Source of the DNA: Planctomyces sp. SH-PL14
GTDB taxonomy: Bacteria; Planctomycetota; Planctomycetia; Planctomycetales; Planctomycetaceae
Direction of reading: 5' to 3'
Length of the DNA: 64,000 bases
Assembly (NCBI RefSeq): GCF_001610835.1
Contig: NZ_CP011270.1
Coordinates: 7,396,001 to 7,460,000 of the forward strand
Below the pieces are notes generated by a model. It did no database searches. It was not told the DNA's origin and was given only the letters and a program-made list of their open reading frames with translations. A program made the position numbers and the translations under genes. Below are positions 6,850 to 24,756 of the stretch, piece by piece. The stretch's first letter is position 1. Each line of letters starts with the position of its first letter.

Positions 6850-6864
6850 GAGCTGCTTCGCAGA

Positions 6865-6950: not shown

Positions 6951-6958
6951 CCCCTTTT

Positions 6959-7888
6959 TTAGTTGAGCCGCCACAGGTGGTCGGCGGTCAGGACAACAAG
7001 GACGACGGGCAGATAAACGAGTGACGTCTTGAGGAGTCGGCGGGCCGAAGAGGTCTCGGGCCGCCAGGCGAACCGGATCGAATCGACGAGATACCAGACG
7101 CCGAGCGCCAGAGCGGTCGCGGCGTACACGGAACCGGCCAGTCCCCACCAGCGGAGGAGGAGGCTGCACGGGATCAGGACGGCGGCGTAACCGACGGCGA
7201 TCAGTCCCACGACGGCGGGATGCCCATTGGCGGGGAGCATCTTGAGCCCCGCCCGACGGTACTGGTCCTGGTAGATCCAGGCGATCGCCAGGAAGTGCGG
7301 GAACTGCCAAGTGAAGAGCAGGACAAAGAGCGTCAGCGCCGACATGTCGAGCGTTTGCCCTGAAGCGACCCACCCCAGGACCGGCGGCATCGCGCCGGGA
7401 ACGGCTCCGATGACCGTGCAGAGGGGCGAATACCGCTTCAGCGGCGTGTAGAGGCCGACATAGGCCGCGGTCGTCGCGACGGTCAAGAAGGCGGTCAGGC
7501 CGTTGACGAACAGGAGGAGCGTGATCGTGCTCAGCGCCGAGCAGGCCAGTCCGTAGGTCCACGCTTCGGCGAGAGAGAGCTGACCGCTCGGGAGCGGCCG
7601 CTCGGCGGTCCGCGGCATCCGGGCGTCGGTCGTGACTTCGAGACACTGGTTCAGGACGCTCGAAGCGATTGCGCCGAGGCCGACCCCGACGAGCGCCATG
7701 GCGAACTGACCCCAGTTCCAGACCGCCTCCACGCCGAGCGCGAAGCCGACCGCCACGGCGACGACCGCCATGAAACCGATCCGCAGCTTCGACAGCCGGA
7801 CATACGCGGCAATACGCCCCGCCTCCGCGGTCAGAGTCGGAGAGACCGTCAAAACGGTCGGAGAGGGGGACAACGTGGACTGACTCAT
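6959..7888 (-). CDS. ctaB: Protoheme IX farnesyltransferase (heme O synthase)
   Basis: An integral-membrane prenyltransferase of 309 residues that adds farnesyl to heme B, giving heme O, the precursor of heme A used by the oxidase encoded beside it. Family motifs are the first Asp-rich motif, seen here as [24 protein letters not shown], the segment [13 protein letters not shown], and [16 protein letters not shown], which includes the second Asp-rich motif. About eight to nine hydrophobic helices are visible. The start overlaps the ctaA stop as ATGA, with AGGAGGA 6-7 bp upstream inside ctaA, so the two are probably translationally coupled. The ~25-residue Ser/Thr-rich N-terminus is not conserved. 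Confidence 0.95.
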
Positions 7889-8841
7889 CGGGTTCCTCCT
7901 GGCGACGGGAGGAACGCGGGGGGATTCCAAACCGGCTGCGGACAACAGGCACTCACGCGAAAAACACGGACAAGGTGAACGGCGGCGGCGGCCAGGGTCA
8001 GCATCCCGACGACGGCGTGGGCCGTCCGGTGCAGGACCTGAGCGATCGAATCGGCGGTGGCGACATACCCGGTCCAGGGGAATCCCCACTTGAGGACCCA
8101 CGCCCCGGCCCCGAGGACGACTTGAAGCGAAGCGACGGCCAGGAGCATCCAGCCGGAGCGGCGGATCCACCGCACTCCGCTCCGCTGCGAGACGAAGGTG
8201 TTGGCCAGGATCAGGCCCCAGGTCAGGATTCCCATCCCGAGGTGCTCGTGCAGTCCCGACCCGTGGTGGCGGATCATCCCGCCCAGGAGGAACTGCCCGG
8301 CGATCGCCACGACCGTGAGGACCGTCCACGGCTTGAGGTGTCCCGTCGCCGGCCCGCGGGCGTAGATCTCGGTATCGAACCATCCTCGGCTTTCCACCGT
8401 CGACACGGTCGCCATCAGCGAGAGGACGCAGGCGGCGAAGAAGCCGTGGACCATCGCCAAGCCCCGCTCGTCGAGGACGACGCGGAACCCGCCAAGCAGC
8501 CCCTGAACGATCACGCAGCCGAGGACCGCATAGGCCAGCCCCACCACCCACCGCCGCGACTCGCCGCGGTGAATGAGAACGACGAGACCGATCGACCACA
8601 GGCCGATCAGCATTCCGGCGAGCCGGTGTCCATGCTCGAGGAACTTGTCCCAGTTGGATGCAAAGTCCCGGAACCACGGATAGGTGACCATCAGGTACCC
8701 GTCCGAGTTCGGCCAGTCCCGGAAGGCCATCCCGGCGTTCTTCGACGTTGTCAGCGCCCCGAAGACAAGCGTCACTATCGCCATACAGCCCGTGGAAAAG
8801 GCGTAGCGGTGGAGAAGCGGCTTGTAAGGGGCGACGGTCAT
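7885..8841 (-). CDS. ctaA: Heme A synthase, CtaA/COX15 family
   Basis: A membrane protein of 318 residues that oxidises heme O to heme A. The pattern of eight helices arranged as two similar halves, with paired His residues (EHGHRLAGM, VHGFFAA, MIRHHGSGLHEHLGM, HRTAHAVVGM), matches COX15/CtaA. It lies between coxA and ctaB and overlaps ctaB by 4 bp, so heme A supply is tied to oxidase expression. No good ribosome-binding site precedes the ATG; the 100-bp gap to coxA contains a palindrome of GTATC words. Confidence 0.92.
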   Translation of the reverse strand: MTVAPYKPLLHRYAFSTGCMAIVTLVFGALTTSKNAGMAFRDWPNSDGYLMVTYPWFRDFASNWDKFLEHGHRLAGMLIGLWSIGLVVLIHRGESRRWVVGLAYAVLGCVIVQGLLGGFRVVLDERGLAMVHGFFAACVLSLMATVSTVESRGWFDTEIYARGPATGHLKPWTVLTVVAIAGQFLLGGMIRHHGSGLHEHLGMGILTWGLILANTFVSQRSGVRWIRRSGWMLLAVASLQVVLGAGAWVLKWGFPWTGYVATADSIAQVLHRTAHAVVGMLTLAAAAVHLVRVFRVSACCPQPVWNPPAFLPSPGGTR

Positions 8842-8872
8842 CAGGGCGAAATGGTCTCGGAAGGATCCAGTG

Positions 8873-8930
8873 GCAGTATCAAGTCTCAGTCGGAATCAGC
8901 ATCGATCGCTGACTGATACCTGATACTTGC
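8873..8930 (-). repeat. Palindrome of GTATC words between coxA and ctaA
   Basis: CAGTATCAAGTCTCAGTC is followed about 20 bp later by GACTGATACCTGATACTTG, an imperfect inverted repeat with an apex of ATCGAT type. It uses the same words as the palindrome between ctaB and coxC, so the two are likely one family. Confidence 0.7.
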
Positions 8931-8941
8931 GACCTCCCCGC

Positions 8942-10831
<1,890 letters not shown>

Positions 10832-10890
10832 GACATCCTCACTGGGGTTCGAACGGGGAGACAGACGTCGGGCGAATGCGGGTTCGCCCG

Positions 10891-11736
10891 TCAGTTCTCG
10901 CCGCCGGACCCTTCCCGCGGACCGTGGTATTCCTGGTCCGCCTTGAGCTTTTTGAGGTATTTGACAAACGCTTCGTCGTTCTCGGCCACCATCCGGGCCT
11001 TCATCTTGTAGTGACCCCACCCGCACAACTCAGCGCACAGCAGCACGTAGTTCGTGCTCTTGTCCGCCTCGAACCAGACGGGAATGACGAGGCCCGGCAC
11101 CGCGTCCTGCTTCACCCGCAGTTCGGGGAGGAAGAACGAGTGCTGCACGTCCTGTGTCCGGAGGTTGATCATGACCGGCCGGGCCGACGGCACGTGCAGG
11201 TCATTGACGGCGTACAGGTCGGTCGGCTGCGGGTCCGGCATCAGCGGCAGGAGCTTGTCGTTCTCGTCGAGGCCGGGGTAACGGATCCGCCACTCGAACT
11301 GCCGGGCCATGACCTCGGCGATTGGACCCTTGCGGGTCTCGGCCGGGAACTGGGACTTGATCCGGTACTCCGCCCACACGTCCATCTGATAGAGGGCGAT
11401 GAACAGCAGGATTCCGGCGGGGACGATCGACCAGATCACTTCCAGGTTGTGACTGCCGTGCGAGAACCAGGCCCGCTCCGTGCTTCCGGGATCGGTTCGT
11501 CTGGCTCCCGAGAACAGGACGTACGCCAGCGCGACCTGCGTCCCCACGAAGGTGATCGTGGTGATGATCAGGATCAGGTAGAACAGGTCGTCGATCTTCC
11601 GGCCCAGCGGCGACGCGGCGGAACCGTCGGCGTTGATCGTCGTCGGAAACCACCAGCCCATGCTGGGGGCCATCAGACAGAAGATCGTCGCCACGATCGG
11701 CCAGAAGGCAAAAAAGACGCACCAGAAACGTTTCAC
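10891..11736 (-). CDS. coxB: Cytochrome c oxidase subunit II with CuA site
   Basis: A 281-residue membrane-anchored subunit that takes electrons from cytochrome c. Two N-terminal helices (about residues 8-26 and 50-75) are followed by a cupredoxin domain with the CuA set: His in DVQHSFFLPEL, then Cys-x-Glu-x-Cys, His and Met in CAELCGWGHYKM. There is no fused cytochrome c domain, so the diheme lipoprotein encoded just upstream is the likely donor. The start is taken as GTG 11736 because GGAAGGAG then sits about 5 bp before it; GTG 11742 would overlap that site. Confidence 0.95.
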   Translation of the reverse strand: MKRFWCVFFAFWPIVATIFCLMAPSMGWWFPTTINADGSAASPLGRKIDDLFYLILIITTITFVGTQVALAYVLFSGARRTDPGSTERAWFSHGSHNLEVIWSIVPAGILLFIALYQMDVWAEYRIKSQFPAETRKGPIAEVMARQFEWRIRYPGLDENDKLLPLMPDPQPTDLYAVNDLHVPSARPVMINLRTQDVQHSFFLPELRVKQDAVPGLVIPVWFEADKSTNYVLLCAELCGWGHYKMKARMVAENDEAFVKYLKKLKADQEYHGPREGSGGEN

Positions 11737-11819
11737 GGTCACTCCTTCCGCTCACTTTGAACGGACATGAACTCGGCTGGAACCGGTCCGCTCGGGCGAA
11801 CCGGCCTCGCCGGACACAT

Positions 11820-13184
11820 CTAGTGGGCGGTGTCGGCTACCTTCGGTGGATCCACGGTGGCGCCCACTCCCTTGCCCGGTTCGAGCGTCTCGAACGGGAC
11901 GGAGAGGACGTAGTTCACAAGATGCCAGCGGTCTTCCTCGGACATCTTGGCTTCTGGAATGCCGGGCATGGGGGTTCCCTTGATCCCGACGGAAATGCGG
12001 CAGTAAATGTCGTACGGACGCCGCCCGCCGCGGTAGATCCCGGTCCGGAGGTTTCGCGGCGTGATCGGATGACCCCAGTTGTCGCGAAGGCCCAGGGTCC
12101 CTTCGCTGTTGAGGGCGGTGGTCGAAGGCCCGTCTCCGCGGCCCGCCTGGCCGTGGCACTTTGAGCAGCCGGCGTTGTCGGAGAGGTAGAGCATCCGTCC
12201 CTTGGCGATCGACTCGGCGGTCGGCTCGACCCCTTCGGACTTCACGAAGACCCGGGCGGTCGGATCGTCGGACTGCGACGTCTTCCAGTTCGTGACGATC
12301 TGCTCGATGAGCGGATCGACGGTGTCCGCCATGAAGTCCGGCGAGTCGACTTCGGTCTTGAATCCCTTGATGACTTCGCTCGACGCTTCTCCCCCCTTGA
12401 CCCGCTCGGCGAACGCGTCATCCGAGTAGTCGCCGCTGAGGTACTTGGCGAGACCTTCTTCGGTCTGGCCTCGCATCGACAGGAAGATGACGTACTCGAC
12501 GATCGCCGCCGTCTCCGCGTCCGTCAGAAGCTTGAAGGAGGGCATGTAGGTCCCGGGAATCCCGTCCAGGATGATCCGGGAGAGGTCGTCACGGCGGGGG
12601 CGGTAGTCGTAGTGCGTGGAGGTGAACTTGAAGAGCCCCTTGCGGTAGTCGCGCGGGAGCGGATTGAGATACTTGGCAGTCGGACCGTTGCCGTCGCCGG
12701 CCACCCCGTGGCAGTGCTGGCAGTGCTCGGCATAGAGATGCCGTCCCGTCGACAGGACGGCGCCGGCTCCGACGAGCGCCGGGCTTCCCGAGGCGGGGGC
12801 CGCTGCCAAGGCGGTTTCGAGTCTGGCGACCTGCGTCGTCTCATCGAACGACTTGATCGTCCCGGTGAGCGTTTTGGCGCCCGGGAAGACGATCGTGTCT
12901 CCGGGCTTGATCGCGAAGACCGTCTTGCCGAACTTCAGGTCGACGGTCCCTTCGTCGCCCGATTCCACCGTGGCGTTCGCCTTGTTGGCCTCGAGCCCCA
13001 GGCGGTCCCACACGCGGATCGTCGTCGGCGTGCCGAAGCGGGAGTCGACGAAGGCGTCGACGTACTTCTCCGCCTCGGGCATCAGGGCGTTGCGGTCCTT
13101 CGACCGGGCGAAGTCCGACGTCCCCTTGGAACATCCCGCGAGCAGGACGACGCAGGACAGTGCTGTGAAAACCGCGGATCTCAC
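11820..13184 (-). CDS. Diheme cytochrome c lipoprotein
   Basis: A 454-residue exported protein. GTG 13184 has GGGAGGGG 5-6 bp upstream and gives a lipoprotein signal with lipobox LLAGC (Cys 18), so it is probably anchored on the outer face of the cytoplasmic membrane. Two heme-binding motifs are seen: CQHCH (155-159) followed by MPSF, and CSKCH (340-344) followed by GTPMPGIPE. A beta-rich segment of ~100 residues precedes the first heme. Its position between the bc-type genes and coxB suggests that it carries electrons from the multiheme/bc complex to CuA. Its separate N-terminal domain is not recognised. Confidence 0.92.
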   Translation of the reverse strand: MRSAVFTALSCVVLLAGCSKGTSDFARSKDRNALMPEAEKYVDAFVDSRFGTPTTIRVWDRLGLEANKANATVESGDEGTVDLKFGKTVFAIKPGDTIVFPGAKTLTGTIKSFDETTQVARLETALAAAPASGSPALVGAGAVLSTGRHLYAEHCQHCHGVAGDGNGPTAKYLNPLPRDYRKGLFKFTSTHYDYRPRRDDLSRIILDGIPGTYMPSFKLLTDAETAAIVEYVIFLSMRGQTEEGLAKYLSGDYSDDAFAERVKGGEASSEVIKGFKTEVDSPDFMADTVDPLIEQIVTNWKTSQSDDPTARVFVKSEGVEPTAESIAKGRMLYLSDNAGCSKCHGQAGRGDGPSTTALNSEGTLGLRDNWGHPITPRNLRTGIYRGGRRPYDIYCRISVGIKGTPMPGIPEAKMSEEDRWHLVNYVLSVPFETLEPGKGVGATVDPPKVADTAH

Positions 13185-13300
13185 GCGATCCCCTCCCGAT
13201 ATCGGAGCCCGGACGATCAAGTCCGGGACCCGGAACGAATCTGCTTTCAGGCCGGTCTCCGCCGGCAAGCCGGCGTGTGCCGACAACGGTCGACCGCCCT

Positions 13301-13498
13301 TCACTTCTTCTCCTCCGCGGCCGGAGCGGCGGCGGGGGTCGTGGAGATCGTCTCTCCCCCGGCTCCCACCTTGATCTCCGACTCCTGAATGACGCGGATC
13401 GGCGGCGCCGGCTGCGGCGCGCATCCCGTCAGTCCGGCCATCCAGGACAGTCCTGCGGCCGTCAACACGGCGGCAGTGAAGTTGTCGTGACGTTTCAT
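13301..13498 (-). CDS. Small lipoprotein of the respiratory operon
   Basis: A 65-residue protein with a signal peptide and lipobox (GLTGC), then a short hydrophilic tail ending in Ala, Pro, Glu and Lys. No domain is recognised. It lies between the diheme cytochrome and the larger lipoprotein gene in the same direction, with gaps of 116 and 34 bp. A weak GAGAG lies before the ATG. It could be an accessory subunit of the bc-oxidase assembly, judged only from position. Confidence 0.6.
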   Translation of the reverse strand: MKRHDNFTAAVLTAAGLSWMAGLTGCAPQPAPPIRVIQESEIKVGAGGETISTTPAAAPAAEEKK

Positions 13499-13532
13499 CT
13501 TGCTCTCTGAGTGGCTCTCGGCCGGTCTCACG

Positions 13533-14363
13533 TTACTTCAGTTTGTCCGACGCCACCTTGAGGTCGACGGGAGTCACGGCGTCGGGCTGGACCTTGATCT
13601 TGAGCCCGCGTTCGATCGTCCCCTTCTCGTGCCAGACGACGAACTCCCGCTCGCCCGCCGGCACCCCCTGGATCTCAAAGCTCCCGTCGGGACCGGTCAC
13701 GGCCGCCCACGGATGATTGACGATGGCGACGTATCCCTTCATCCAGGCGTGGATGTCGCACGCCACCGGGAGGGGAGCCGTTTCCGGATTCTTCGGCGTG
13801 AACGTCAGGCCGGTTGTGTCTTTCGGTGCGATCGTCTGGTTGAAGTATGAGGACTTGACGTTGTGGGCGGTCCCGTCGCTGTTCTTCATCTGCAGCGGCT
13901 GGCCGACACGGCAGAGACTGACGTGCGGGAAGAACTTGCAGCCATCCTGGTCGACGACGACCGGCGTGCTGGGCGGAGCCGGGATCTCGACCTTGGGAGC
14001 CTTCCGCAGGAAGACAACGACGTTGGCCAGGCCGCCATCGGCCCCGACAACGATCGTCTCGTTCGGGACGTCCACCTGCTTGCAGATCGCGTCGCTGCTG
14101 GTTCCCTTCGGAACGAGCGGCGGGAGCGCGGGGTTGCCCCCTTCGAAAACGATCCGCCCCTTGATCGTCCCGAAGCCGGTGACCTCTTCGGTCGCCTGCG
14201 TCTCACCGGCCGTGGCCGCCGCCGAGGCGCTCGAGAGAACGAGTTCGACCGCCACCGGCTGGTTGGCGCCGCCACCCAGGGCGGAGACGGGGCCGCCGCA
14301 GCCGCTCGAAAGCAGGCCGCCAGCCCCCAGCAATCCGGCGAGGAGGTAGGATGTCGGTTTCAT
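13533..14363 (-). CDS. Lipoprotein with carboxypeptidase-regulatory/cupredoxin-like domain
   Basis: A 276-residue exported lipoprotein: signal peptide ending in LLSSGC, a short Gly/Ala-rich linker, then a beta-sandwich-like domain. FGTIKGRIVFEGG near residue 70 and GPDGSFEIQGVPAGEREFVVWHE near the C-terminus resemble carboxypeptidase regulatory-like repeats. In between, TAHNVKS, PLPVACDIHAWMKGY and several His/Cys residues recall plastocyanin-like copper proteins (His...Cys...His...Met). Copper binding is therefore possible but unproven. Its start lies 1 bp after the octaheme gene stop (TGAgATG), which indicates tight coupling. A periplasmic electron carrier or structural subunit is a reasonable guess. 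Confidence 0.75.
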   Translation of the reverse strand: MKPTSYLLAGLLGAGGLLSSGCGGPVSALGGGANQPVAVELVLSSASAAATAGETQATEEVTGFGTIKGRIVFEGGNPALPPLVPKGTSSDAICKQVDVPNETIVVGADGGLANVVVFLRKAPKVEIPAPPSTPVVVDQDGCKFFPHVSLCRVGQPLQMKNSDGTAHNVKSSYFNQTIAPKDTTGLTFTPKNPETAPLPVACDIHAWMKGYVAIVNHPWAAVTGPDGSFEIQGVPAGEREFVVWHEKGTIERGLKIKVQPDAVTPVDLKVASDKLK

Positions 14364-14364
14364 C

Positions 14365-17300
14365 TCAGTTCGTCCCTTCCGGTTTGGCCGGAGGCGTGGC
14401 GTTCGCGGCGGCTGCAGCGGCGGCGGCTGCCGCCGGGTCGACGTATTGTAGCTTCCCATGCGCTTCCAGCAGTTGCTGGTAGTTGAAGAGGCCGAAGACC
14501 GCCGCTTCGATCTGGTCCCAGCCGTCCCCGCCGAAGAGGTCCGCCATGTTTTTCTTGTCGGCCGGGAAGTTGACCGGCATCGACGTGTAGGGCGTGACCC
14601 ACGGCGGCGAGGAGATCCACAGCTTCACCCAGTCCGGCCGCAGCCGGCGGTTCACCCGTTCCAGGTTCGGTCCGCGGACCACCTGCTTGGGATCCCCCTG
14701 GATCTCGTTCCCGCCGACGAAGTGGCACTGCCGGCAGACGTTGCTGTTGATGATCTTCCATCCGGCGAGGTCATAGGCTTCCTTCGAGTCCGGATGCTTG
14801 GCGGCGATGGCGGCCGTCTGAAGCTCGACAAAGCCCTGCCCGCTCTGGGGCACGGTCTGGTACGGGAACGGGGCCCCGTCGATCGCCGCAAAGTAGTTCG
14901 CGAGCGTCTGGGCTTCGCTGTCGTCCAGGTTGAACTTCGGCATCCGCAGGACGGTCGTGTGGCGGATCTTGTCCGGGTTCTTGAGGAACGAATAGAGCCA
15001 CGGTGTCTGGACCTTGACCCCCTCGCGGAACAGCGGCGGCGGCGAGGCCTGCAAGGCACGGTTCTGGTCGCCGACTCCCGGATCGTTGAGGATCAACTTC
15101 GAGAGCCAGAGGGCGAACGTCCCTCCGCGGCCGGTTCCTCGTGAGACGAGCGACTGGACGGGAATCGCGATAGGCGTGTGCGGCAGGACGATCTTCTCGA
15201 ACGCTTTATGGACGCCCCACGTATCGACCCGCAGGATCTGATCCTCAGGGAGCTCTTCCAGATCGGGCTCGGCCAGGACCAGGCCGTGAACCTTGACGAT
15301 CGCCTCGCCGGCCGGCGACCGCTTACCGGTGTCGCCGTTGACCGGCGGGATGAGCTTCAGCAGCAGGTCATAGGCAGACTGGTACTTGTCCGGTGTCAGC
15401 TCGGACCCCTGGAATTCTTCCGGCTTGATCCGGTACTGGAACTCCGGCATGTCGACCATGTGGCAGCCGGTGCAGTTGAACTTCTCCAGCAGCCGCTCCC
15501 CTTCGACGATCGCCAGCTTCGCTCCGGTCGGCCGGAACTGGTACTGCGGGGCCGGAGGATCGGCGACGAGGCCGAGCACGAACGTCGAGATCGCCTCGAT
15601 CTGCTTCTGGTCGAGATAGAAGTTCGGCATCCGCAGCCGCTCGTCCCAGCCCTTGGTCTCCGACTTGCGGTAGTCGTAGCTGCGGGGATCGCGGAGCTTC
15701 TGCCAGATGAAGCCGGGCCGGCCGTGGTGCAGGAGGCTCTCGAAGAGGTAGGCCTCCGTCAGACTCTCCTCGGGGGCGGTGCCGTCTGCCTTGGCGGAGC
15801 CGAGGATCTTCTCGATCTTCTCGCGGGTGCTCGATCCGTCCCGCTCACCGTGATGGTGGAGGTACTCCTCGATGTGCTCGGGAGCGAGCTTGGAGGTGTC
15901 CTTGCGTCCCCAGTCGGTGAGGGCCGGACCGATCGGGCGGCCGTCCTCGAAGTTCGCGATGTCATGGCAGCCGAAGCAGCCGTAACGGCTCACCGTCCGG
16001 CGGCCGACGAACGTCAGCTTCCGCTGTTCCCACTCCTCGTCGGAGAGGGCGTTCCCGTCCGCGTTGACGAGCTCGATTTCGTCCCCCTTGACGACGTCCT
16101 TGAGAGCCGGGAGCGTGCCGTCCGCCTTCGGCTTCTTGGCTGCCTCGGGGACGGCGACACCTCGGTTCTTGAAGACCTCGTCCACCTTGGGCGAGTTCAT
16201 GCTCTTGGCGAGGTAGAACCGCACGAGATCATCGAGCGGCGTCGTGACCGCCGCTTCCCGCGTCTCGCTCTGTCCCTTCGAGACGATCGTGAGTGTCACC
16301 ACATCGCCCGACTTCCGGCTGGCGATGAGCGCATCGAGCTGTTCGGGAGAAGTGACCGCTTCCGAGCCGACCTTGAGGATCACGTCGTCGACTTCGATCG
16401 GAGCGACGCGGTTCCCTGCCCCACCCTCGGCCTTGACCCACGTCCGGGTCGCGGCACTCGTCTGCAGGACTTCGGTCACGACCACGCCGGACTTCTCGAC
16501 GCCGAGCCGCGAAGCATCGGCCTCGGTCGTTGCGCGGGCCACGACACCGAGCGAGGTCTTCCAGTCCTTGTTGAGGGGCGCCGGTTCCGGCGTCCCCTTC
16601 TGGAGCAGGAAGGCGGCGATATCGGCCGCGGGGTCGATCACGGTCTCCCCGTCTTTGTACGGATCGAGGAACAGGTCCGGCATCCGGGTTCGGGTGTGGT
16701 ACTTCTCCGGCTGCCGGAGCCAGGTGTAAAGCCACTGGAAGCCCGCTTCGCCGGGGAGCAGCTTTTCGTGAATCCGCGACAGCTCGGGGCCGAAGTCCGC
16801 CTTGGCTCCGGCGAGCTCTTCGTCGCCCGGATAGCTGTGGCAGGCGAGGCAGCCGCGGCGGGCGAAGAGGGCCTTGCCGCGGGCAGCATCCGCCTTGTAG
16901 TCCGCCTTGGGGGACTCCAGCTCGATGGGCGTCGACTTCGTCGTCAGGTAGGTCGCGATCCCGGACAGTTCGACCGGCTGGAGCTTGCCAGCCAGAGAGT
17001 CGTGCTGGTTCGTCTCGTCAAAGAAGACCGGCATCCGGGTCGTCGGACGGAACTTCTTGGGATTCGCGGTCCAGGAGGCGATGAACGACGGGCTCGTCTT
17101 CTGGGCGATGTGCCGCAGCGAAGGACCGACCTTGCGGAGCAGGCCGGGGATCGCGCTCGGATCGGCCGCGAGCTTGGCCGCCTCTTCGGCGGTGGACGGC
17201 TCGGCCCGCAGGTCTGGACCGATCGGCTTGCCGCCGTCATAGCCGTTGATTTCGTGGCAGCCGAAGCAGCCGTATTCCTTGATGAGCGAGTAGCCCTCGA

Positions 17301-18465
17301 ACACCTTGGGAGCCGAGGCGCCGTGCTGCTTGTTGACGCCGAGCTCCGTCACCGAGTGGTGGCAGCGGATGCAGGTCGCTTCCAGGAACGGCTTCGGGAA
17401 CATCGGAAGCTCCCAGAAGTGGTTCGAGTGCCAGTGGTGCTTCTGTTCCCACTCGGCCGCCTGGGCGGGGTTCGCCGGATAATGCTCGGCGTTCTGGAAG
17501 CTCGTTCCCGACCCGTCCCCTTCGTGGCAGATCGTGCAGCCGAACTTCTCGACCGGGTGCGGGCTGGTCGACGTCAGGAACAGGTCCGGGTTCGGGTGGG
17601 CGCTGAACGGCTGGTGGTATTCGTCCGCCGGGAAGTTGGCGACGTTCCCCGCCCCGAAGTCGGAGATGTTGACGTGACAGGTCCGGCAGCGGTCGACGCG
17701 CCCGACCCGCTTCATGCCGAGCGACTGATCGAGCCCGAGCGGCCAGTCGTACTGGATCTTGATGTGCGGGTTGAACCCGTTGATGATCGGCAGCTCCTTG
17801 AGCCACCGCTTGAAGGACGCCAAGTGGTTGGTCGGCTTGAGGAGTTCCTTCTGGTCGTTAAGCGCCTTCTCGTCCGCCGTGAACTTGGTCAGCTCGGCGT
17901 CGATGCTCTTGAGGTCCTCGGAGAGCTTGTTGTACTCCGCCCGCTTGGCGGCGAAGGCGATGTTCTTCTGCTCGAGAGCCCGGGCGATGTCGTCCGACTT
18001 CTCCTGCTCGGCGTCGTACAGCTCCTTGCGATGCGCCAGCTCCTTGGCGGGCTTGGCGTCGCGGACGGCGAGGTCGTAGTTCGCGCGGGCCACGTCCCGC
18101 TTGGCGTTCTGGAACTTGAGTTCCACCGCCATGATCTCGGTCTCGGCCTTGAGCTTCCGGTACTCCTCGACGAGCGGCTTGTTGTCGGTGCTGGCGAGGG
18201 CCTCTTCGTACCGCTTGTTGGCGTCGGTCTTCCGCTCGGAGAGCTTGTCGAGTTCGGACTTGTACTTGGCGTCGGCCAGCCGCTCTTCGTCCTTCTGCAG
18301 CTTGTCGACCTTCAGCCGTTCCGCCTCTTTCTGGTACCGCTTCCAGTCCCGGCTCTCATCCTTGGCCATCATGATGAGCGTCGAGCCCAGCACGGCGATC
18401 GCGCTGAGCGCGAACACCTTGTGCATGGTGCTGAGGTTACGCCAGTTCTGTTCTGTCGCAGGCAT
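14365..18465 (-). CDS. Giant membrane-anchored octaheme c-type cytochrome with coiled coil and PDZ domain
   Basis: A 1366-residue protein. A signal anchor (about 17-33) is followed by a long charged coiled coil (about 40-210). Eight heme motifs follow: CRTCH 260, CTICH 310, CIRCH 365, CFGCH 400, CLACH 539, CFGCH 830, CTGCH 998 and CRQCH 1244. Four RMPxF stretches (about 478, 595, 946 and 1175) look like distal Met ligands, and the CFGCH...PIGP units at 400 and 830 are internal duplicates. Between hemes 5 and 6 lies a PDZ-like domain (about 636-745). The Ala-rich C-terminus is low-complexity. It follows the cytochrome b genes directly and probably takes the place of cytochrome c1 in this bc-like complex; this role is inferred from position. 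Confidence 0.88.
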   Translation of the reverse strand: MPATEQNWRNLSTMHKVFALSAIAVLGSTLIMMAKDESRDWKRYQKEAERLKVDKLQKDEERLADAKYKSELDKLSERKTDANKRYEEALASTDNKPLVEEYRKLKAETEIMAVELKFQNAKRDVARANYDLAVRDAKPAKELAHRKELYDAEQEKSDDIARALEQKNIAFAAKRAEYNKLSEDLKSIDAELTKFTADEKALNDQKELLKPTNHLASFKRWLKELPIINGFNPHIKIQYDWPLGLDQSLGMKRVGRVDRCRTCHVNISDFGAGNVANFPADEYHQPFSAHPNPDLFLTSTSPHPVEKFGCTICHEGDGSGTSFQNAEHYPANPAQAAEWEQKHHWHSNHFWELPMFPKPFLEATCIRCHHSVTELGVNKQHGASAPKVFEGYSLIKEYGCFGCHEINGYDGGKPIGPDLRAEPSTAEEAAKLAADPSAIPGLLRKVGPSLRHIAQKTSPSFIASWTANPKKFRPTTRMPVFFDETNQHDSLAGKLQPVELSGIATYLTTKSTPIELESPKADYKADAARGKALFARRGCLACHSYPGDEELAGAKADFGPELSRIHEKLLPGEAGFQWLYTWLRQPEKYHTRTRMPDLFLDPYKDGETVIDPAADIAAFLLQKGTPEPAPLNKDWKTSLGVVARATTEADASRLGVEKSGVVVTEVLQTSAATRTWVKAEGGAGNRVAPIEVDDVILKVGSEAVTSPEQLDALIASRKSGDVVTLTIVSKGQSETREAAVTTPLDDLVRFYLAKSMNSPKVDEVFKNRGVAVPEAAKKPKADGTLPALKDVVKGDEIELVNADGNALSDEEWEQRKLTFVGRRTVSRYGCFGCHDIANFEDGRPIGPALTDWGRKDTSKLAPEHIEEYLHHHGERDGSSTREKIEKILGSAKADGTAPEESLTEAYLFESLLHHGRPGFIWQKLRDPRSYDYRKSETKGWDERLRMPNFYLDQKQIEAISTFVLGLVADPPAPQYQFRPTGAKLAIVEGERLLEKFNCTGCHMVDMPEFQYRIKPEEFQGSELTPDKYQSAYDLLLKLIPPVNGDTGKRSPAGEAIVKVHGLVLAEPDLEELPEDQILRVDTWGVHKAFEKIVLPHTPIAIPVQSLVSRGTGRGGTFALWLSKLILNDPGVGDQNRALQASPPPLFREGVKVQTPWLYSFLKNPDKIRHTTVLRMPKFNLDDSEAQTLANYFAAIDGAPFPYQTVPQSGQGFVELQTAAIAAKHPDSKEAYDLAGWKIINSNVCRQCHFVGGNEIQGDPKQVVRGPNLERVNRRLRPDWVKLWISSPPWVTPYTSMPVNFPADKKNMADLFGGDGWDQIEAAVFGLFNYQQLLEAHGKLQYVDPAAAAAAAAAANATPPAKPEGTN

Positions 18466-18529
18466 AGGACTCTTTCCAACACGGGGAGCGGCCGGTCTCC
18501 CTTCGGAGAGCGGCCAGCCGGTGGCCGGG

Positions 18530-19891
18530 TCAGATGTTAAAGAACCACTCGGGGATGGCGACGATGTATTTCAAACTGAACGCCCACCGCAGGACCATCT
18601 TCACGGGCAGAGCCATCATGAGGAGGATCAGGTTGGCGAACACCATGTAGCGGATGAATCCCATCCGCATGAAGTAGCTCCGCAGGAACGTCTGGGCCAT
18701 CAGCGGCGGCAGGATGATCAGGTAGCCGAGGCTCAGGACGAGTCCCAGCCACTCCCGCTTGAGGATCGTCAGGATCGACATCCCGATGTCTCCCCCCTGG
18801 TAGGAGGGGAGCGACTGCCCGAGTCCCCACACCCAGAAGTATTCCGAGAGGTTGACGTTGTTCAGCACCTCGAGCTTGTGGACGTCCCAGTACTCGTAGG
18901 CTCCGAACATGTTCCAGTTCGGGCCGCGGATGAACGTCCCGAGGATGATCATCCCGATCCAGAGCGGAATGAAGCCGAACAGGAAGATCCCGACCGAGAC
19001 CTTGCGGTCGTTGAAGCAGTAGTAGCCGTTCCCCTTGCGGTTGAAGTCGATGTAGGGGATAGCGCACAGCCCGCCGATGATGACGAGTGGCAGCACGACC
19101 CCGGCCATCCAGGGGTCGTAGTACACGAGCATTTCCTGCAGGCCGAGGAAGTACCACGGGGCCTTCGAGGGGTTCGGGGTCTTGACGAGCGAACCGGGCT
19201 CTTCCAGCGGAGCGGGCAGAGCCACACCCCAGACGATCAGGAACGCCGTCAGCAGCAGCATGCAGACGAGTTCGGTGTAAACGAGGTCCGGCCAGACGAG
19301 AACTTGATCCGACAGTTCTTTCTCGGCGACCGGCCGCCCTTCGGCGACCCGGCGATCGTTCTCCACCGCCTGCTTGAAGTACAGCCAGGTGAAGAACCCG
19401 AACAGGAACAGGAGGCCGACGATCGGGACGTTGTCCGGCTTGCCGACGATCTGCCGGAAGTCGTAGTCCGTCATGCTCAGCCCCAGGAACAGGATCGCCC
19501 CGTTCAGCAGGAGCCATGCGGGGGTCGGCTTCACCCAGCTTTCACGGTAGTGGATCATCGCCCAGAAGCCGGCAACCGAGAGCGCAAAGAAGATCCGCGC
19601 GTCGGATGTCACGAAGTTGACGATGGTCTTGAACCACTCCGGGAGCCGGAGCAGAAACTTCTCGGGATCGCTGCGGGAGACGATGTGAGCGAATGCGACG
19701 AAGAACAGGAGGGTCGTGTAGAGAGCCCAAGTGTAACACTTGGGAACGTGATGCAGCCCGGCGACCGACTCGTAGTAGCCGTCCTGCTTGTACGACCGCA
19801 TCGTCCACCACAGGTTCATGATGGCGAGCAGCAGGTACAGCCAGCCCAGTCCGTTGATGACGGTAAGGGTCAGGTTGGGATGCGTTTCCAT
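18530..19891 (-). CDS. Cytochrome b C-terminal (subunit IV-like) protein
   Basis: A 453-residue integral-membrane protein with about ten hydrophobic helices. The segment from EEPGSLVKTPNPSKAPWYF to LGLQEMLVYYD matches the Qo-site region of cytochrome b C-terminal/PetD proteins, where PEWYF becomes APWYF. It is much longer than PetD (about 160 residues) and carries several extra helices on both sides. It therefore works with the separately encoded N-terminal half as a split cytochrome b. GGAAGAC lies 7 bp before the ATG. The octaheme gene follows 64 bp later. Confidence 0.88.
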   Translation of the reverse strand: METHPNLTLTVINGLGWLYLLLAIMNLWWTMRSYKQDGYYESVAGLHHVPKCYTWALYTTLLFFVAFAHIVSRSDPEKFLLRLPEWFKTIVNFVTSDARIFFALSVAGFWAMIHYRESWVKPTPAWLLLNGAILFLGLSMTDYDFRQIVGKPDNVPIVGLLFLFGFFTWLYFKQAVENDRRVAEGRPVAEKELSDQVLVWPDLVYTELVCMLLLTAFLIVWGVALPAPLEEPGSLVKTPNPSKAPWYFLGLQEMLVYYDPWMAGVVLPLVIIGGLCAIPYIDFNRKGNGYYCFNDRKVSVGIFLFGFIPLWIGMIILGTFIRGPNWNMFGAYEYWDVHKLEVLNNVNLSEYFWVWGLGQSLPSYQGGDIGMSILTILKREWLGLVLSLGYLIILPPLMAQTFLRSYFMRMGFIRYMVFANLILLMMALPVKMVLRWAFSLKYIVAIPEWFFNI

Positions 19892-20022
19892 GAGTCTTCC
19901 GGATCGAACGATCCACCCCGCTTCATCCGAGAGACGAAACGGGATGGGACAAAATCGACTCGCGCCGCCACCAATCGCCTTTGCAGAGAGTCCGGCCTGG
20001 CCGGACCCTCCCTCCTCGACGC

Positions 20023-20796
20023 CTACAACGGCTGACTGATCCCGCCGTCCTTGCGGACTCGCCAGAAGTGGATCGCAATCAGGAGCGATACCACGACCGG
20101 AATGGCCACGCAGTGCAGGATGTAGAACCGGTTCAGCGTCTCCTCACCGACGGTGCGGGCCCCCAGGAGGAGGAACCGCGCGTCGCTGGCGTTCGTGATC
20201 AGGTCGTAGCCTCCAATGTTCAGCAATTGGAAGCCGGGGCCTTCATGTCCCAGGAAAGGATGGGCGCGGGCCATGTTCGAACCGACGGTGATGGCCCAGA
20301 TCGCCAGCTGGTCCCACGGCAGCAGGTAGCCCGTGAAGGACAACAGCAATGTCAGAACCAACAACAGGACCCCGATGACCCAGTTGAACTCCCGCGGAGG
20401 TTTATAACTCCCCGTCAGGAACACCCGGTACATGTGGAGCCACACCGTGATCACCATGGCGTGGGCGCCCCAGCGGTGGATTTCCCGCATGATGCCGAGC
20501 GTGGTGACGTCGCGGAGGGCCCGGATGTCCGTGAACGCCCACTCAAGAGTTGGGCGGTAATAGAACATCAGAAGGACGCCGGTCAGGCTTTCGACCAGGA
20601 ACAGGAAGAAGGTGACTCCTCCCATGCACCAGGTGTAGGAGAGGGCGATCCCCCCCTTCTGCACCGAGACCGGATGGAGGTGCAGGAAGAAGTTGGTCAG
20701 CACGACCACCATCCGGTTACGCCGATCGTACGGCGCCGGGTGGCGGAAGATGCTTTTCCAGATTTGTGACTGACGAATGTACTCGCCGACAGACAT
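20023..20796 (-). CDS. Cytochrome b N-terminal domain (b6-like)
   Basis: A 257-residue membrane protein with four main helices binding the two b-type hemes. HRWGAHAMVITVWLHMYRVF contains one His pair (spacing 14, as in b6-type proteins), and RFYILHCVAIPVVVSLLIAIHF contains the partner His residues. GYLLPWDQLA is the conserved stretch near the quinol site. ATG 20796 has AAGGGA upstream. The gene lies between the Rieske protein and the C-terminal half of cytochrome b, the classic order of bc/b6f operons. Confidence 0.94.
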   Translation of the reverse strand: MSVGEYIRQSQIWKSIFRHPAPYDRRNRMVVVLTNFFLHLHPVSVQKGGIALSYTWCMGGVTFFLFLVESLTGVLLMFYYRPTLEWAFTDIRALRDVTTLGIMREIHRWGAHAMVITVWLHMYRVFLTGSYKPPREFNWVIGVLLLVLTLLLSFTGYLLPWDQLAIWAITVGSNMARAHPFLGHEGPGFQLLNIGGYDLITNASDARFLLLGARTVGEETLNRFYILHCVAIPVVVSLLIAIHFWRVRKDGGISQPL

Positions 20797-20867
20797 CACT
20801 GTCCCTTCGGAGACCGAGGCGTTGAACAACCGAAGCCGTGAAGACGAACGACGTGACTACCGAGACA

Positions 20868-21881
20868 TCAGGCGATGCGAACGAACGATTTGGGATCCTG
20901 CCACTGACCGAGCTCGTCCTGGAACTTGACACTCTTGTCGACTTCCAGCTGTCCGTCGGGCGACAGGCTTAGACCGACGCGTTCCAGCGGCCGGGGGGCG
21001 GGCCCTTCGAAGTTCACACCCGTGATGTAGAAGCCCGAGCCGTGGCACGGGCATTTGAATTTCTGTTCCGCTTCGAGCCAGCTGGGCGTGCAGCCGAGGT
21101 GCGTGCAGACCGATGAGAGGGCGTAGATCGCGGGAGCCCCGTCGAACTCTGTGTTGACGATGTAGACGCCGCGGGACGGCTTGAACTTCTCGGAGACCTT
21201 GCCGTACGGATAGTCCGACGGCGGCCCGATCTTGAACCGGGAGGGGAGTTCGAGGACCGTGTTCGGCATCATGAACCGGGCGATCGCCAGCGACCAGACG
21301 CCGCCGATCGCCGCGAGGACGGTCCATGCCAGATAGTAGGGAACGGCAATGGCCGCGAGCATGGCGGCGGGGAAGCTCCGCCGCGTGACCGGAGCGGCGT
21401 CTTTCTTGCCCGGAGCCCCCTTGGCGGGAAGCTTGGGCTTGGCAGGGGCGGCTGCGGTGGCGACCGCGCCAGCGGCTGCCGGCGTGGCTTCGGCCTGCTT
21501 GACCGCCTTCAGCATGTCTTGAACGGAGGGACGGTCTCCAGATGCGGCGGCAGCAGCGGCCGCCGGTTTGGCTGCGGCGGGCTTTGCTGCGGGGGCGGCG
21601 GCAGCCGGAGTTGCGGCCGCGGGGGCGGCGCCTCCAGCGGCGGCCTTGTTGGCCCGGATGGCGGCCATGATCTCGGCCGGAGACTTGGGCTTGTCAGCAG
21701 GGGCCGCAGCCGGAGGACTCGGGGCGGCGGCTGGCGCAGGTGCGGATTCCGCGGCGGCCGGGGCCGCCTCCGCAGCGGCGGGAGCGGGCGTTTCGGGCGG
21801 AGGAGCCGCTCCTCCTGCGCCGGCTTTGGCAGCCCGAATTTTGGCCAGGATGTCCGCTGGTGATGGTTTCTGATCGGCCAT
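20868..21881 (-). CDS. Rieske iron-sulfur protein with Ala/Pro-rich N-terminal extension
   Basis: A 337-residue protein. The C-terminal half is a standard Rieske protein: one membrane helix (about 175-200), box I CTHLGC (259-264) and box II CPCHGSG (277-283), giving 2Fe-2S ligands Cys259, His261, Cys277 and His280 and a disulfide Cys264-Cys279. The first ~165 residues are an Ala/Pro linker with three copies of a short amphipathic motif: SPADILAKIRAAK (7-19), SPAEIMAAIRANK (67-79) and SVQDMLKAVKQAE (119-131). This extension would lie in the cytoplasm. It is the first gene of the 15-gene respiratory block, so the promoter is expected in 21882-22224. Confidence 0.94.
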   Translation of the reverse strand: MADQKPSPADILAKIRAAKAGAGGAAPPPETPAPAAAEAAPAAAESAPAPAAAPSPPAAAPADKPKSPAEIMAAIRANKAAAGGAAPAAATPAAAAPAAKPAAAKPAAAAAAASGDRPSVQDMLKAVKQAEATPAAAGAVATAAAPAKPKLPAKGAPGKKDAAPVTRRSFPAAMLAAIAVPYYLAWTVLAAIGGVWSLAIARFMMPNTVLELPSRFKIGPPSDYPYGKVSEKFKPSRGVYIVNTEFDGAPAIYALSSVCTHLGCTPSWLEAEQKFKCPCHGSGFYITGVNFEGPAPRPLERVGLSLSPDGQLEVDKSVKFQDELGQWQDPKSFVRIA

Positions 21882-22224
21882 ATCGAGATGGGAGCGGCTG
21901 GGCTGGTGGAATGTGTACGGCGACGGGACTCGCTTTGAGAGCGCTCTGCTGGACGGGGCCCACGGCAGACGCTCCTCCTGCCGGAGGCCGGCTTCCGCGA
22001 GGCAGAACACTGCACACTATTCGATCACTGCTTCATCGAATGATGGCGGGCGGATTCCGGAGCGGCAATCGAGCCGTTTCAACGCCCGTTGATTTCTCAC
22101 GATCAGGAAGCGCAAGCCTTTCCGGTTCTCGCCTCAGCGACGAAAGGGTGAGCGCTGAGGGCTGGGCGTTTCGAGTTGAAGGAATGAACGGGCGTGATCA
22201 GGGGACTGACGTCCCCCGCTCGCC
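21882..22224. other. Intergenic region upstream of the respiratory operon
   Basis: A gap of 343 bp between the gcvT stop and the Rieske start, both on the minus strand. It should contain the promoter of the respiratory operon, but no convincing -35/-10 pair is visible. The end next to gcvT holds the GGGGAC hairpin (annotated separately). No open frame in it looks coding. Confidence 0.5.
22194..22224 (-). repeat. GGGGAC hairpin element, copy 1 (after gcvT)
   Basis: Read on the minus strand, the gcvT TAG is followed at once by GGCGAGCGGGGGACGTCAGT and then CCCCTGATCA. The core GGGGACGTCAGTCCCC folds as GGGGAC/GTCCCC. The same string follows three other genes in this window (33561, 38299 and 51230). 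There is no T-tract, so it is not a simple intrinsic terminator. Confidence 0.8.
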
Positions 22225-23313
22225 CTACGCTCGTTTGTAGAACGGGAGCGAGACCACCTTGGCCTCTTCGTGGGTTCCGCGGATGTCGATCTGGAGCGTC
22301 GTGCCGGGTGCCGACAGCTCGGTCGGGACGTAGCCCATGGCGATCGAGACCCCCAGCGTCGGCGACTTCGTACCGCTGGTCACGTCGCCGACGGGCTCTC
22401 CGTTGTGGACGATCGGCATCTTTTCCCGCGGGATCCGCGGCGTCGCGAGGCGCAGGCCGACACGGGTCTTGCCAGTCGGGTGGGACTGGATCTGCTGAAG
22501 CGCTCCCTTGCTGATAAAGTCCGCGGGTTTCTTGATTTTCACAGCGAAGGCGAGTCCCGCCGTCAGCGGATCGATCTCCTCACTGAGTTCGTGGCCATAG
22601 AGCGGCATTGCCGCTTCGAGTCGCAAGGTGTCCCGGGCCCCGAGCCCACAAGGGCGGCTGCCGGCGAGGGCTGTGGCGGATAGGAGTTTTTCCCAACCCT
22701 TTATGGCGTGGGAGTTTGGGAGAATTATTTCGAAGCCGTCTTCCCCGGTGTAGCCGGTCCGGCTGACGTAGCCGGGGACGCCGCAGACTTCCGTTTCCAG
22801 CGCGGAGTAGTACTTCATGTCGACGGTCGCCGCGCTGACGAGGTTGTCGATCAGCACCGCCGCTCGCGGCCCCTGGACTGCGAACATGAACGTGTCGCGG
22901 GTCAGGTCGGTCATCTGGCAGTCGAACGACCGACCGTGGTGGATGACCCAGTTGACGATCTTCTCGCGGTTCGAGGCGTTGACGACCAGGAGGTAGTGGG
23001 AGTCGAAGCGGTAGATCAGGACGTCGTCGAGGATTCCGCCCCGCTCGTTGCAGACGAGCGAATAGCGGACATCTCCGACATTCAGCTTTGAGACATCGTT
23101 CGTGCAGATCCGGTCCAGCAGAGCCGCCGCCTCGGGGCCCTCAAACCGCAGCCGGCCCATGTGGGCGATGTCGAAGATCCCGGACGAGGTCCGCACCGCG
23201 TTGTGCTCGTCAACGAGCGTCGTGTACTGCACCGGCATCTGCCAGCCCGCGAAGTCGACCATCCGGCCGCCGTGGGAAACATGCCAGTCATACAGGGCGG
23301 TGCGCAAACTCAT
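22225..23313 (-). CDS. gcvT: Aminomethyltransferase, glycine cleavage system T protein
   Basis: The T protein releases ammonia from the aminomethyl-lipoyl H protein and passes the methylene group to tetrahydrofolate. It has 362 residues, normal for the family. Conserved features include HGGRMVDFAGWQMPVQY, SGIFDIAHMGR, the folate-site Asp region of TNDVSKL, SRTGYTGEDGFEI, and GLGARDTLRLEAAMPLYGHE. ATG 23313 has GAGG 7 bp upstream; upstream in-frame starts would add non-conserved sequence. gcvH and gcvP are not adjacent, though T, H and P genes are often clustered. Confidence 0.95.
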   Translation of the reverse strand: MSLRTALYDWHVSHGGRMVDFAGWQMPVQYTTLVDEHNAVRTSSGIFDIAHMGRLRFEGPEAAALLDRICTNDVSKLNVGDVRYSLVCNERGGILDDVLIYRFDSHYLLVVNASNREKIVNWVIHHGRSFDCQMTDLTRDTFMFAVQGPRAAVLIDNLVSAATVDMKYYSALETEVCGVPGYVSRTGYTGEDGFEIILPNSHAIKGWEKLLSATALAGSRPCGLGARDTLRLEAAMPLYGHELSEEIDPLTAGLAFAVKIKKPADFISKGALQQIQSHPTGKTRVGLRLATPRIPREKMPIVHNGEPVGDVTSGTKSPTLGVSIAMGYVPTELSAPGTTLQIDIRGTHEEAKVVSLPFYKRA

Positions 23314-23533
23314 GAGAACCTCATCCTGGGGAGACATGACAGTTTCGCACAGTGCGTTCAGGCTGTCAGCCCTCAGGGGGCAGCTGTCGGGAAGGAAAGC
23401 TGGCCCGGTCTCGTGACTTCCCCAAGCGGCTCGACCGATTCGCCGCGACATCGGCGGCGCACGGACCTCCGCCACGCCCAGGAGACGAAGCTCCGTTTCA
23501 CGAAAGCCTTGAACGGGCGCCGGAACGCGGCTC

Positions 23534-24544
23534 TCAGTCAATCAGCGCTGTCGTTTCTTCGAACCCGTACATCAGATTGAAGTTCTGCACCGCGACCCCG
23601 CTGGCCCCCTTGATGAGGTTGTCGAGGACCGCGAAGACCAGCACCTTGCTGCGGACCACCCGGACCGTGATGTCGCAGTAGTTCGTCTGCGCAACGTCCT
23701 TCGTCTTCGGCAGTTGCTCCGTGACGCGGATGAACGGCTTTCCGGCGTAGAAGCTCCGGACGGCCGCGAGCAGCTCTTCCTGCGTGGCCGGCTTGAGGCG
23801 GTCGGCGTAGATCGAGGCCAGGATCCCGCGGTCCATCGGGACGAGGTGTGGGGTGAACAGCACCTCCACCCCTTCCCGGCTGACGTCGCTCAGGACCTGT
23901 TCGATCTCCGGCGTGTGCCGATGGTTCCCCACGGCGTACGGGGACAGGCTTTCGTTGCACTCGGCGTAGAGCGTGTTGAGCTTGGGGGTCCGCCCTGCCC
24001 CGGAGACGCCGCTCTTGGCGTCGATGATGATTCCGGTCGGCTTGATGAAACCGCCGCACAGCAGGGGGGCCAGGGCCAGGATCGACGTGCTGGTGTAGCA
24101 GCCCGGGTTGGCGATCAGCTTCTGGCCGGGGATCTTTTCGGCGTAGAGCTCGGGGAGCCCGTAGACCGTGGCGGCGAGTCGGGCCGAGTCGGTGTGGACG
24201 TGGCCGTACCACTGCTCGTAGACCGCCGGATCTTTGAGGCGGTAATCCGCGCTCAGGTCGATGACCCGCAGTCCGGCGTCGAGGAGGCGGGGAATCGCTT
24301 CCATGCTGGCGACGTGCGGCAGGCAGCAGAAACAGACGTCCGCCCGCTCGGCGAGCTGCGCCGGGGAGAGGTTTTCCAGGCGAAGGTTGAGCCGGCCGCG
24401 AAGAAGCGGATGGATCTCGGAGATGTGGCCGGTCTCGCTGCGGCTCGTCACCGCCGTCACCTGCACCTCGGGATGCCGCAGGAGGATCCGCAGGAGTTCG
24501 AGAGCGGTGTAGCCGGTGGCTCCCTGGATGGCGACTCGAATCAT
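23534..24544 (-). CDS. argC: N-acetyl-gamma-glutamyl-phosphate reductase
   Basis: The third step of arginine biosynthesis: NADPH reduction of N-acetylglutamyl phosphate to the semialdehyde. The 336-residue length fits ArgC type 1. The nucleotide-binding motif [18 protein letters not shown] is at the N-terminus. The catalytic Cys is in ANPGCYTS, and the active-site His lies in [11 protein letters not shown] and [11 protein letters not shown]. The C-terminal [16 protein letters not shown] is typical. No Shine-Dalgarno site is seen. No other arg genes are nearby. Confidence 0.96.
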
Positions 24545-24552
24545 TGGCGGCG

Positions 24553-24590
24553 GGGGACTAGGGATGAGGGACTAGAGGCTAGGGACGGAG
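24553..24590. repeat. Short-word direct repeat (GGGACTAGGGATGAGGGACTAG)
   Basis: A stretch of about 38 bp built from the words GACTAGGGA and TGAGGGACTAG, just upstream of argC. The same words occur at 55185-55272 upstream of hemE. Confidence 0.65.
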
Positions 24591-24756
24591 CGAACCCGGA
24601 ATCATATCCGAGTGGTCCGTGCGCTGAAACGGGCGGCGGGGGCGGCGGGTATTTCGCTTGGAAGTCCTGCCGGGATGCGGCAGACTTCGTTTGACGGTGT
24701 GCGACTTCTCATTCGACTGCTGGTTTCGATCGTGGGGTTCGATCATGGGAGCTGCC

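Follow-up and report, generated by a model that had tools for sequence, protein, structure and literature searches.

The closest described counterpart of the gene studied here belongs to Kustd1480-1485 of Kuenenia stuttgartiensis, a b6f-like complex in which, according to the portions of PMC12954380 used here, an octaheme cytochrome (Kustd1485) replaces cytochrome f and is treated as a complex subunit. The same portions describe a model in which long helices of Kustd1485 embrace the complex and its Rieske protein, and an AlphaFold3 prediction in which His62 of the b6 protein, Kustd1481, is a ligand of an unexpected extra heme b at the dimer interface. PDZ domains are combined with c-type hemes in one protein in MamP and MamE (PMC3971196, in part). 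Here we describe a gene of Planctomyces sp. SH-PL14 encoding an octaheme cytochrome c that carries a PDZ domain and is part of a bc-type operon. It lies in a window (the whole stretch of DNA analysed) of 64,000 nucleotides, positions 7,396,001 to 7,460,000 of NZ_CP011270.1, in a genome of 8.44 Mb that forms a single contig; its hemes, likely heme ligands, PDZ domain, operon, homology and three PDZ positions are established here at the level of sequence.

Taken as a whole, we consider it reasonably probable that the octaheme protein is a subunit of a b6f-like complex of the Kustd1480-1485 type and that its PDZ domain serves as a partner-docking module. The two parts are not equally firm: that the octaheme works in a b6f-like complex is highly likely, its membership of the complex and its electron route being what we infer from homology and gene order, and the docking role of the PDZ domain, together with its binding activity and its ligand, is put forward tentatively and may well be wrong.

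The octaheme cytochrome and its b6f-like surroundings

A preliminary description of this DNA had proposed a product of 1366 residues with eight CxxCH motifs and a duplicated CFGCH...PIGP unit, and all of this held. The protein is encoded by one open reading frame (ORF), to which we add the minus strand; its CxxCH motifs lie at residues 260, 310, 365, 400, 539, 830, 998 and 1244, and the CFGCH...PIGP unit occurs at hemes 4 and 6. The protein was compared within a set of 158 fetched octaheme loci, consisting of a first 95 and a further 63 picked partly for large reading frames, a sample thus biased to large ORFs. Exactly eight CxxCH motifs were retained in 155 of the 158 homologs, and a chance origin of the eight-heme pattern is excluded on this count; the remaining three have seven, two of them cut short where their contigs end and L128 containing unread bases.

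Four RMPxF motifs had been named as candidate methionine ligands. Three are exact (477, 945 and 1174), the fourth reads RMPDL (594), and a fifth Met-Pro motif, SMPVN, was found at 1295, so that one methionine is available for each of hemes 4-8; the simplest reading is that these hemes occupy five His/Met cytochrome c domains. Beyond the heme motifs, H290, H303, H328, M478, M595, M946, M1175 and M1296 were invariant among 59 aligned homologs. In the larger set, H303 and H328 were present in 158/158 and H290, close to the edge of its alignment block, in 146/158, while the methionines were retained in 150 (M478), 156 (M595), 156 (M946), 151 (M1175) and 153 (M1296) of 158, many of the exceptions being gaps. 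Hemes 1-3 probably form a bis-His triheme domain.

The N-terminal part begins with a probable membrane anchor, and a 19-mer hydropathy above 1.6 was likewise found in 86/98 rows (a count that includes the duplicate L003 and the five-heme L115-L117). The latter three are relatives of 1024-1070 residues that match parts of the octaheme. The region that follows (residues 39-216) had been called a coiled coil of ~170 residues. By a simple measure its 3.5-residue periodicity was 0.88, not above that of shuffled sequences (1.02 +/- 0.33), and the family median was 1.43 (93 rows); this measure gave the coiled coil no support, and the composition supports a long charged helix.

The octaheme gene occupies the place in which cytochrome c1 or f is usually encoded, as had been suggested. 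Genes for a Rieske protein, a cytochrome b6-like subunit and a subunit-IV-like (SUIV) protein precede it, in this order, in 139/158 loci; a lipoprotein gene follows it in 136, a diheme cytochrome gene in 98 and the CoxB-CoxA pair in 81. In 11 of the 19 loci that lack this trio, the sequence upstream is shorter than 3.1 kb. The Pfam matches of the nine operon ORFs included no c1 or f family.

The comparison with Kuenenia was made through an anammox-type locus, L106, by matching residue numbers. Its Rieske Ser114 and Phe116, b6 His62, Arg266 and Lys267, and oxidoreductase Arg550 bear the six numbers printed for Kustd1480, Kustd1481 and Kustd1483 in the available portions of PMC12954380, and for this reason L106 is very probably the Kustd1480-1485 locus itself or one nearly identical to it, with its octaheme the Kustd1485 counterpart. 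The window octaheme is 29% identical to that of L106, with homology across the heme-bearing core. Since the anammox locus matches the Kustd numbering, the octaheme core is, as judged by homology, of a known kind, a replacement of cytochrome f in a b6f-like complex, and on the same grounds the earlier proposal of a periplasmic electron wire in an unusual bc complex very probably holds.

The shared features are the clustering of Rieske, b6, SUIV and octaheme genes, the eight hemes, the long helices, a Rieske Ser accompanied by Phe in place of Tyr, and the conserved positions of b6 His62, Arg266 and Lys267. L106 differs in that its octaheme has 948 residues and no PDZ domain, and in that a pyridine-nucleotide oxidoreductase (by Pfam) is encoded between b6 and SUIV; the window locus, in turn, has the PDZ domain and a larger SUIV, lacks an NAD(P) oxidoreductase gene and is followed by an oxidase operon. 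Across the first-set loci, L003 and window positions 5001-25000, ORFs matching the L106 oxidoreductase were confined to L106 and L108, so the window complex does not appear to be of the proposed NAD(P)H-forming kind. The extra-heme histidine of b6 (His50 in the window) was conserved in 86/86 rows, and its surrounding LH.HP motif in 143/143; it is therefore not tied to the oxidoreductase, being conserved also where this enzyme is absent.

Other known systems were less close. The locus resembles b6f and bc1 complexes in its Rieske protein, its split b6/SUIV and a b6 cysteine, Cys68, at what we take to be the place of the heme cN cysteine, and differs from them in that an octaheme without a c1/f family match replaces the monoheme cytochrome f or c1. 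The Geobacter selenite/tellurite operon gave the best NCBIfam models for b6 (ExtP, 255.5) and SUIV (ExtQ, 52.7) and a match to the octaheme (ExtS, 37.5), all under the curated cut-offs (290, 150 and 100). A magnetochrome protein was rejected: the combination of PDZ and c-type hemes recalls MamP and MamE, but the octaheme has no magnetochrome match and no Mam model scored above its cut-off, MamE matching only the PDZ stretch (15.3 against 800) and MamT scoring 10.2 against 200. Alternative complex III, for whose genes no search was made, was dropped, as it is not known to contain a Rieske protein. No HAO-type Pfam or NCBIfam family was among the matches at E up to 1, and an HAO-like octaheme cytochrome c (OCC) was rejected accordingly; the octaheme of PMC5317091, in the part available, is such an HAO-like protein and a different thing. 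The whole octaheme gave a single weak phmmer match in the PDB, NorC.

The PDZ domain and its three positions

The PDZ-like domain proposed between hemes 5 and 6 was borne out by profile hidden Markov models. PF00595 (cut-off 23.2) scored 25.6 bits, PF13180 and PF17820 matched below their cut-offs, and an independent model, built from 15 further PDZ domains encoded in this genome, matched residues 658-733. A profile of 27 octaheme PDZ domains matched 120 different chain sequences in the PDB (E 0.001 or better), with the first PDZ domain (PDZ1) of DegP/DegQ at the top (E 2.7e-26, among the best 60 of the 120); in contrast to DegP/DegQ, the octaheme has no protease-domain match in Pfam. The loop glycine of the DegP type was retained in 26 of the 27 aligned domains, and this loop serves carboxylate and peptide binding. 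Single-sequence AlphaFold2 models, made without an alignment, were poor (predicted local distance difference test, pLDDT, 42 and 44), and the fold call therefore rests on homology; with these low-pLDDT models, the top Foldseek matches were PDZ domains of HtrA, at non-significant values (best E 0.048 and 0.025).

PDZ domains were called in the 158 loci with the independent model and a second PDZ model, and their sites were named by heme interval: site A between hemes 5 and 6, site B between hemes 6 and 7, and site C between hemes 1 and 2. A PDZ domain was present in 66 homologs, 22 at site A (including the window protein), 9 at site B and 35 at site C. In the first 95 the independent model placed 22 at site A, 8 at site B and 1 at site C (L079), the other 64 having none at E up to 1; in the further 63 the two models gave 34 at site C and 1 at site B, and 28 had none at E 0.001. 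No octaheme PDZ was found in the 29 rows from outside the class. Scores above the curated Pfam cut-off were obtained for 10/10 sequences checked at site A, 3/3 at site B and 6/11 at site C, the later ones being drawn from sequences already flagged by the local PDZ model; in the other five site-C sequences PDZ was still the best Pfam family, below the cut-off. In the window's family the octaheme occurs in 46 genera; 43 of these were sampled, and 15 have the domain (hand count). A PDZ domain in a respiratory cytochrome had been expected to be rare, an expectation that fails within the octaheme family, where it recurs at three positions. An assembly chimera was set aside because other genomes carry the same insertion.

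The trees are based on alignment blocks surrounding the hemes, inserts excluded, and were inferred by a quick method with support from the SH-aLRT (Shimodaira-Hasegawa-like approximate likelihood ratio test) only. On the 158-row tree, in which the long branches L079/L224 and L090/L093 join each other, site C corresponds to a branch adjoining the window's family, with PDZ in 35/37 rows and in every row of one 32-row branch; site B is one clade (support 100), and site A requires at least 5 gains or losses. A PDZ gene tree that included 27 octaheme domains, from sites A and B and none from site C, placed sites A and B near each other and gave no resolution. A single clade of all 27 was neither shown nor rejected (approximately unbiased test, p-AU 0.277), and the same holds for a single site-A clade (p-AU 0.102). 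As the site-C domains are outside this tree, the three positions may stem from relocation of one PDZ domain or from separate gains.

Some loops carry other long segments. Four between hemes 5 and 6 (L065, L071, L095 and L105) contained no PDZ domain by Pfam, and in 20 long segments scanned, 7 of them PDZ-bearing, no domain other than PDZ exceeded its Pfam cut-off. The heme 6-7 loop of L066 (L066:8138-8902 (+)) holds a parvulin-like insertion with a weak Rotamase_2 match (20.3 bits, cut-off 27), and L142 has a similar stretch. Three PDZ-less loci encode a separate PDZ protein, secreted as judged by eye, ~1 kb downstream and past the lipoprotein gene: L094:3412-4500(-), L096:10845-13178(+) and L097:10369-12072(+).

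The octaheme that replaces cytochrome f is already known from Kuenenia, and the PDZ domain appears to be the new part. A few literature searches, confined to open-licence papers, turned up no PDZ domain within a bc-type respiratory cytochrome, and the main text of PMC12954380 does not contain the term PDZ; sequence databases were not searched for PDZ domains in other respiratory cytochromes.

Weighing the role of the PDZ domain

In the arrangement we favour, the octaheme would be anchored by its one N-terminal helix, take electrons from the mobile Rieske head and pass them via the eight hemes to the cupredoxin-like lipoprotein and the diheme cytochrome c, and from there to CuA of the heme-copper oxidase of the same operon, its long helices probably wrapping around both the complex and the Rieske protein in the way modelled for Kustd1485. 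The PDZ domain would be an accessory module in a surface loop, most likely gripping the C-terminal tail or a short strand of a periplasmic partner, a hold that would keep the complex near its electron acceptor or its sister monomer. Docking or scaffolding is suggested by the repeated placement at three positions, and the presence across the 32-row branch and the retained loop glycine also speak for a role. The hydrophobic SUIV tail is the obvious candidate ligand, though the same tail occurs without a PDZ domain: SUIV ends in a hydrophobic residue in 147/147 rows, with and without PDZ, and its helix count would place the tail on the periplasmic side. A bolder version, in which a tail-binding PDZ port at three loops, acquired by repeated gain or relocation in one Planctomycetota class, couples the complex to periplasmic acceptors or the oxidase as a plug-in respirasome connector, strikes us as somewhat unlikely.

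Several observations weigh against this arrangement. The domain is absent from the octaheme in 92/158 rows and is thus dispensable for the core reaction. It is also weakly constrained, since its median identity among 12 site-A rows was 0.36, against 0.64 for the triheme domain, 0.64 for hemes 4-5, 0.67 for the heme-6 domain and 0.50 for the heme-8 domain (the helical arm, in the same comparison, stood at 0.33). Other insertions are found in the same loops, at site A in L065, L071 and L131 and at site B in L066. When the C-termini of eight operon proteins were compared between loci with and without PDZ, by eye and by last-residue counts, nothing separated site A or B; in site-C loci SUIV ends in F in 27/33 and the diheme cytochrome in F or L in 11/31, a pattern that follows the clade and is therefore no independent evidence. 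As to the core, eight loci with at least 4 kb upstream (L102, L107, L112, L119, L212, L222, L223 and L224) lack all or part of the trio, two of them (L222 and L223) carrying a site-C PDZ, and the linkage is consequently not universal. Finally, the only NCBIfam model above its cut-off on the octaheme was SoxX (TIGR04485, 68.2 against 61, on two stretches); the score is probably a sum over repeated cytochrome c domains, as the model spans 78 positions and several such domains are present in the octaheme, and identity with SoxX, a small one-heme cytochrome of thiosulfate oxidation, was rejected for a protein of 1366 residues and eight CxxCH motifs.

The strongest competitor, second to partner docking in our ranking, concerns the role of the PDZ domain only and holds it to be a near-neutral passenger: insertions would be tolerated in the inter-domain loops, where a domain abundant in the periplasm would occasionally land. 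The fast evolution of the domain, the gains or losses required at site A and the other insertions in the same loops, including the weakly parvulin-like ones of L066 and L142 at site B, are consistent with such a history. Still, PDZ was the sole domain above cut-off in the long segments scanned, recurs at three positions and is present throughout the 32-row branch, and we regard the passenger as unlikely, if only slightly more so than the respirasome connector.

Ranked third is a structural dimer contact, in which PDZ domains would pair across the two-fold axis of the complex and bind no tail. bc complexes are dimers. In MamP, the PDZ domains are what mainly holds the dimer together (PMC3971196, in the part available), which offers a model for such pairing. 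Equivalent contacts would have to be made from three different insertion points, though, and the glycine of the peptide-binding loop is retained, and so we give this contact a low probability, below that of the passenger. Lower again, and quite improbable, is the recruitment of DegP- or parvulin-type assembly or quality-control factors during heme insertion. It draws on the closeness of the domain to DegP/DegQ PDZ1 and on the weak Rotamase_2-like insertion at site B of L066; against it, no further PDZ-bearing ORF, such as HtrA, was found in the fetched PDZ-octaheme loci, other proteases and chaperones not having been looked for.

That the octaheme is a separate periplasmic electron hub encoded beside the bc complex is very improbable, for although its association with the complex is predicted here from sequence and the trio is absent or incomplete in the eight loci named above, the gene order is retained in 139/158 loci, no c1/f family was matched by the nine operon ORFs, and PMC12954380, in the available portions, counts the Kuenenia counterpart among the subunits of its complex.

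Neighbouring genes and meaning for the family

The features of the operon, all on the minus strand, are collected in the table below. The SUIV-like protein has ~10 hydrophobic stretches and greatly exceeds subunit IV in length, and its tail IPEWFFNI, or one close to it, is nearly universal. In the lipoprotein, H199-N200, C234, H237 and M240 (numbered from the ORF start at 14459) were almost invariant in 79 rows, and the C..H..M pattern was found in 131/138 homologs. Pfam gave no significant domain and no cupredoxin match for this protein; the spacing of its Cys, His and Met is presumably that of amicyanin, and on this basis it is probably a type-1 copper protein.

Features of the octaheme gene and its operon (positions within the window)
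Feature	Position	Strand	Basis and remarks
Octaheme cytochrome c with PDZ, 1366 residues	14365..18465	-	Eight CxxCH; Pfam Cytochrom_C and PDZ
Probable N-terminal membrane anchor, residues 16-34	18364..18420	-	19-mer mean hydropathy 1.89
Long charged helical region, residues 39-216	17818..18351	-	3 Pro+Gly in 178 residues; 45% Lys, Arg, Glu or Asp
Triheme domain, hemes 1-3, residues 257-375; H290, H303 and H328 likely second axial ligands	17341..17697	-	Invariant columns; Cytochrome_C7 27.4 bits, cut-off 24.8
Cytochrome c domains of hemes 4 and 5, residues 392-635; likely Met ligands M478, M595	16561..17292	-	Conservation; Pfam Cytochrom_C
PDZ domain, DegP/DegQ type, residues 636-745	16231..16560	-	Pfam; profile against PDB; same-genome PDZ model
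Cytochrome c domains of hemes 6-8, residues 821-1330; likely Met ligands M946, M1175, M1296	14476..16005	-	Conservation
Rieske iron-sulfur protein; CPCHGSGF, Phe where Tyr is usual	20868..22010	-	PF00355 33.0 bits; motif
Cytochrome b6-like subunit; His50 (aligns with L106 His62), Cys68	20023..20829	-	PF00033; conservation
SUIV-like membrane protein, extra hydrophobic segments, conserved C-terminal tail IPEWFFNI	18530..19891	-	PF00032 17.5 bits, below cut-off 20.7; TIGR01156 and ExtQ below cut-offs
Lipoprotein, cupredoxin-like, conserved H-N...C-D-x-H-x-W-M	13533..14363	-	Likely start ATG 14363; ORF listed from 14459
Diheme cytochrome c	11820..13424	-	PF00034, two stretches; true start may be further in
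CoxB, cytochrome c oxidase subunit II; CuA motif CAELCGWGHYKM	10891..11742	-	PF00116; TIGR02866 134.2 bits, cut-off 147.7
CoxA, cytochrome c oxidase subunit I	8942..11026	-	PF00115 486 bits; TIGR02891 600.3, cut-off 670.75; true start probably near 10837
CtaA/COX15-like assembly protein	7885..8841	-	PF02628 50 bits

Three further observations concern the distribution of the octaheme. A second, weak homolog of residues 1106-1321 is encoded elsewhere in the genome (G000:C1:2507849-2508409, L002; E 1.8e-6). L107 holds an anammox-type octaheme closely related to that of L106, and genes for Rieske, b6 and SUIV are absent from the 16 kb read there (6.4 kb upstream). In one large genus of the window's family (g39), all listed genomes, several of them single contigs, gave no octaheme match at E 1e-10 and 1e-40, and the complex may have been lost or replaced in it.

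To conclude, octaheme b6f-like complexes form a family that extends through the phylum and includes Kustd1480-1485; in 81 of the 158 loci CoxB-CoxA genes follow. The chemistry of Kustd1480-1485 can therefore be studied in relatives that lack the NAD(P) oxidoreductase. The recurrent PDZ domain, for its part, makes it testable whether respiratory complexes hold their redox partners by tail-binding domains.

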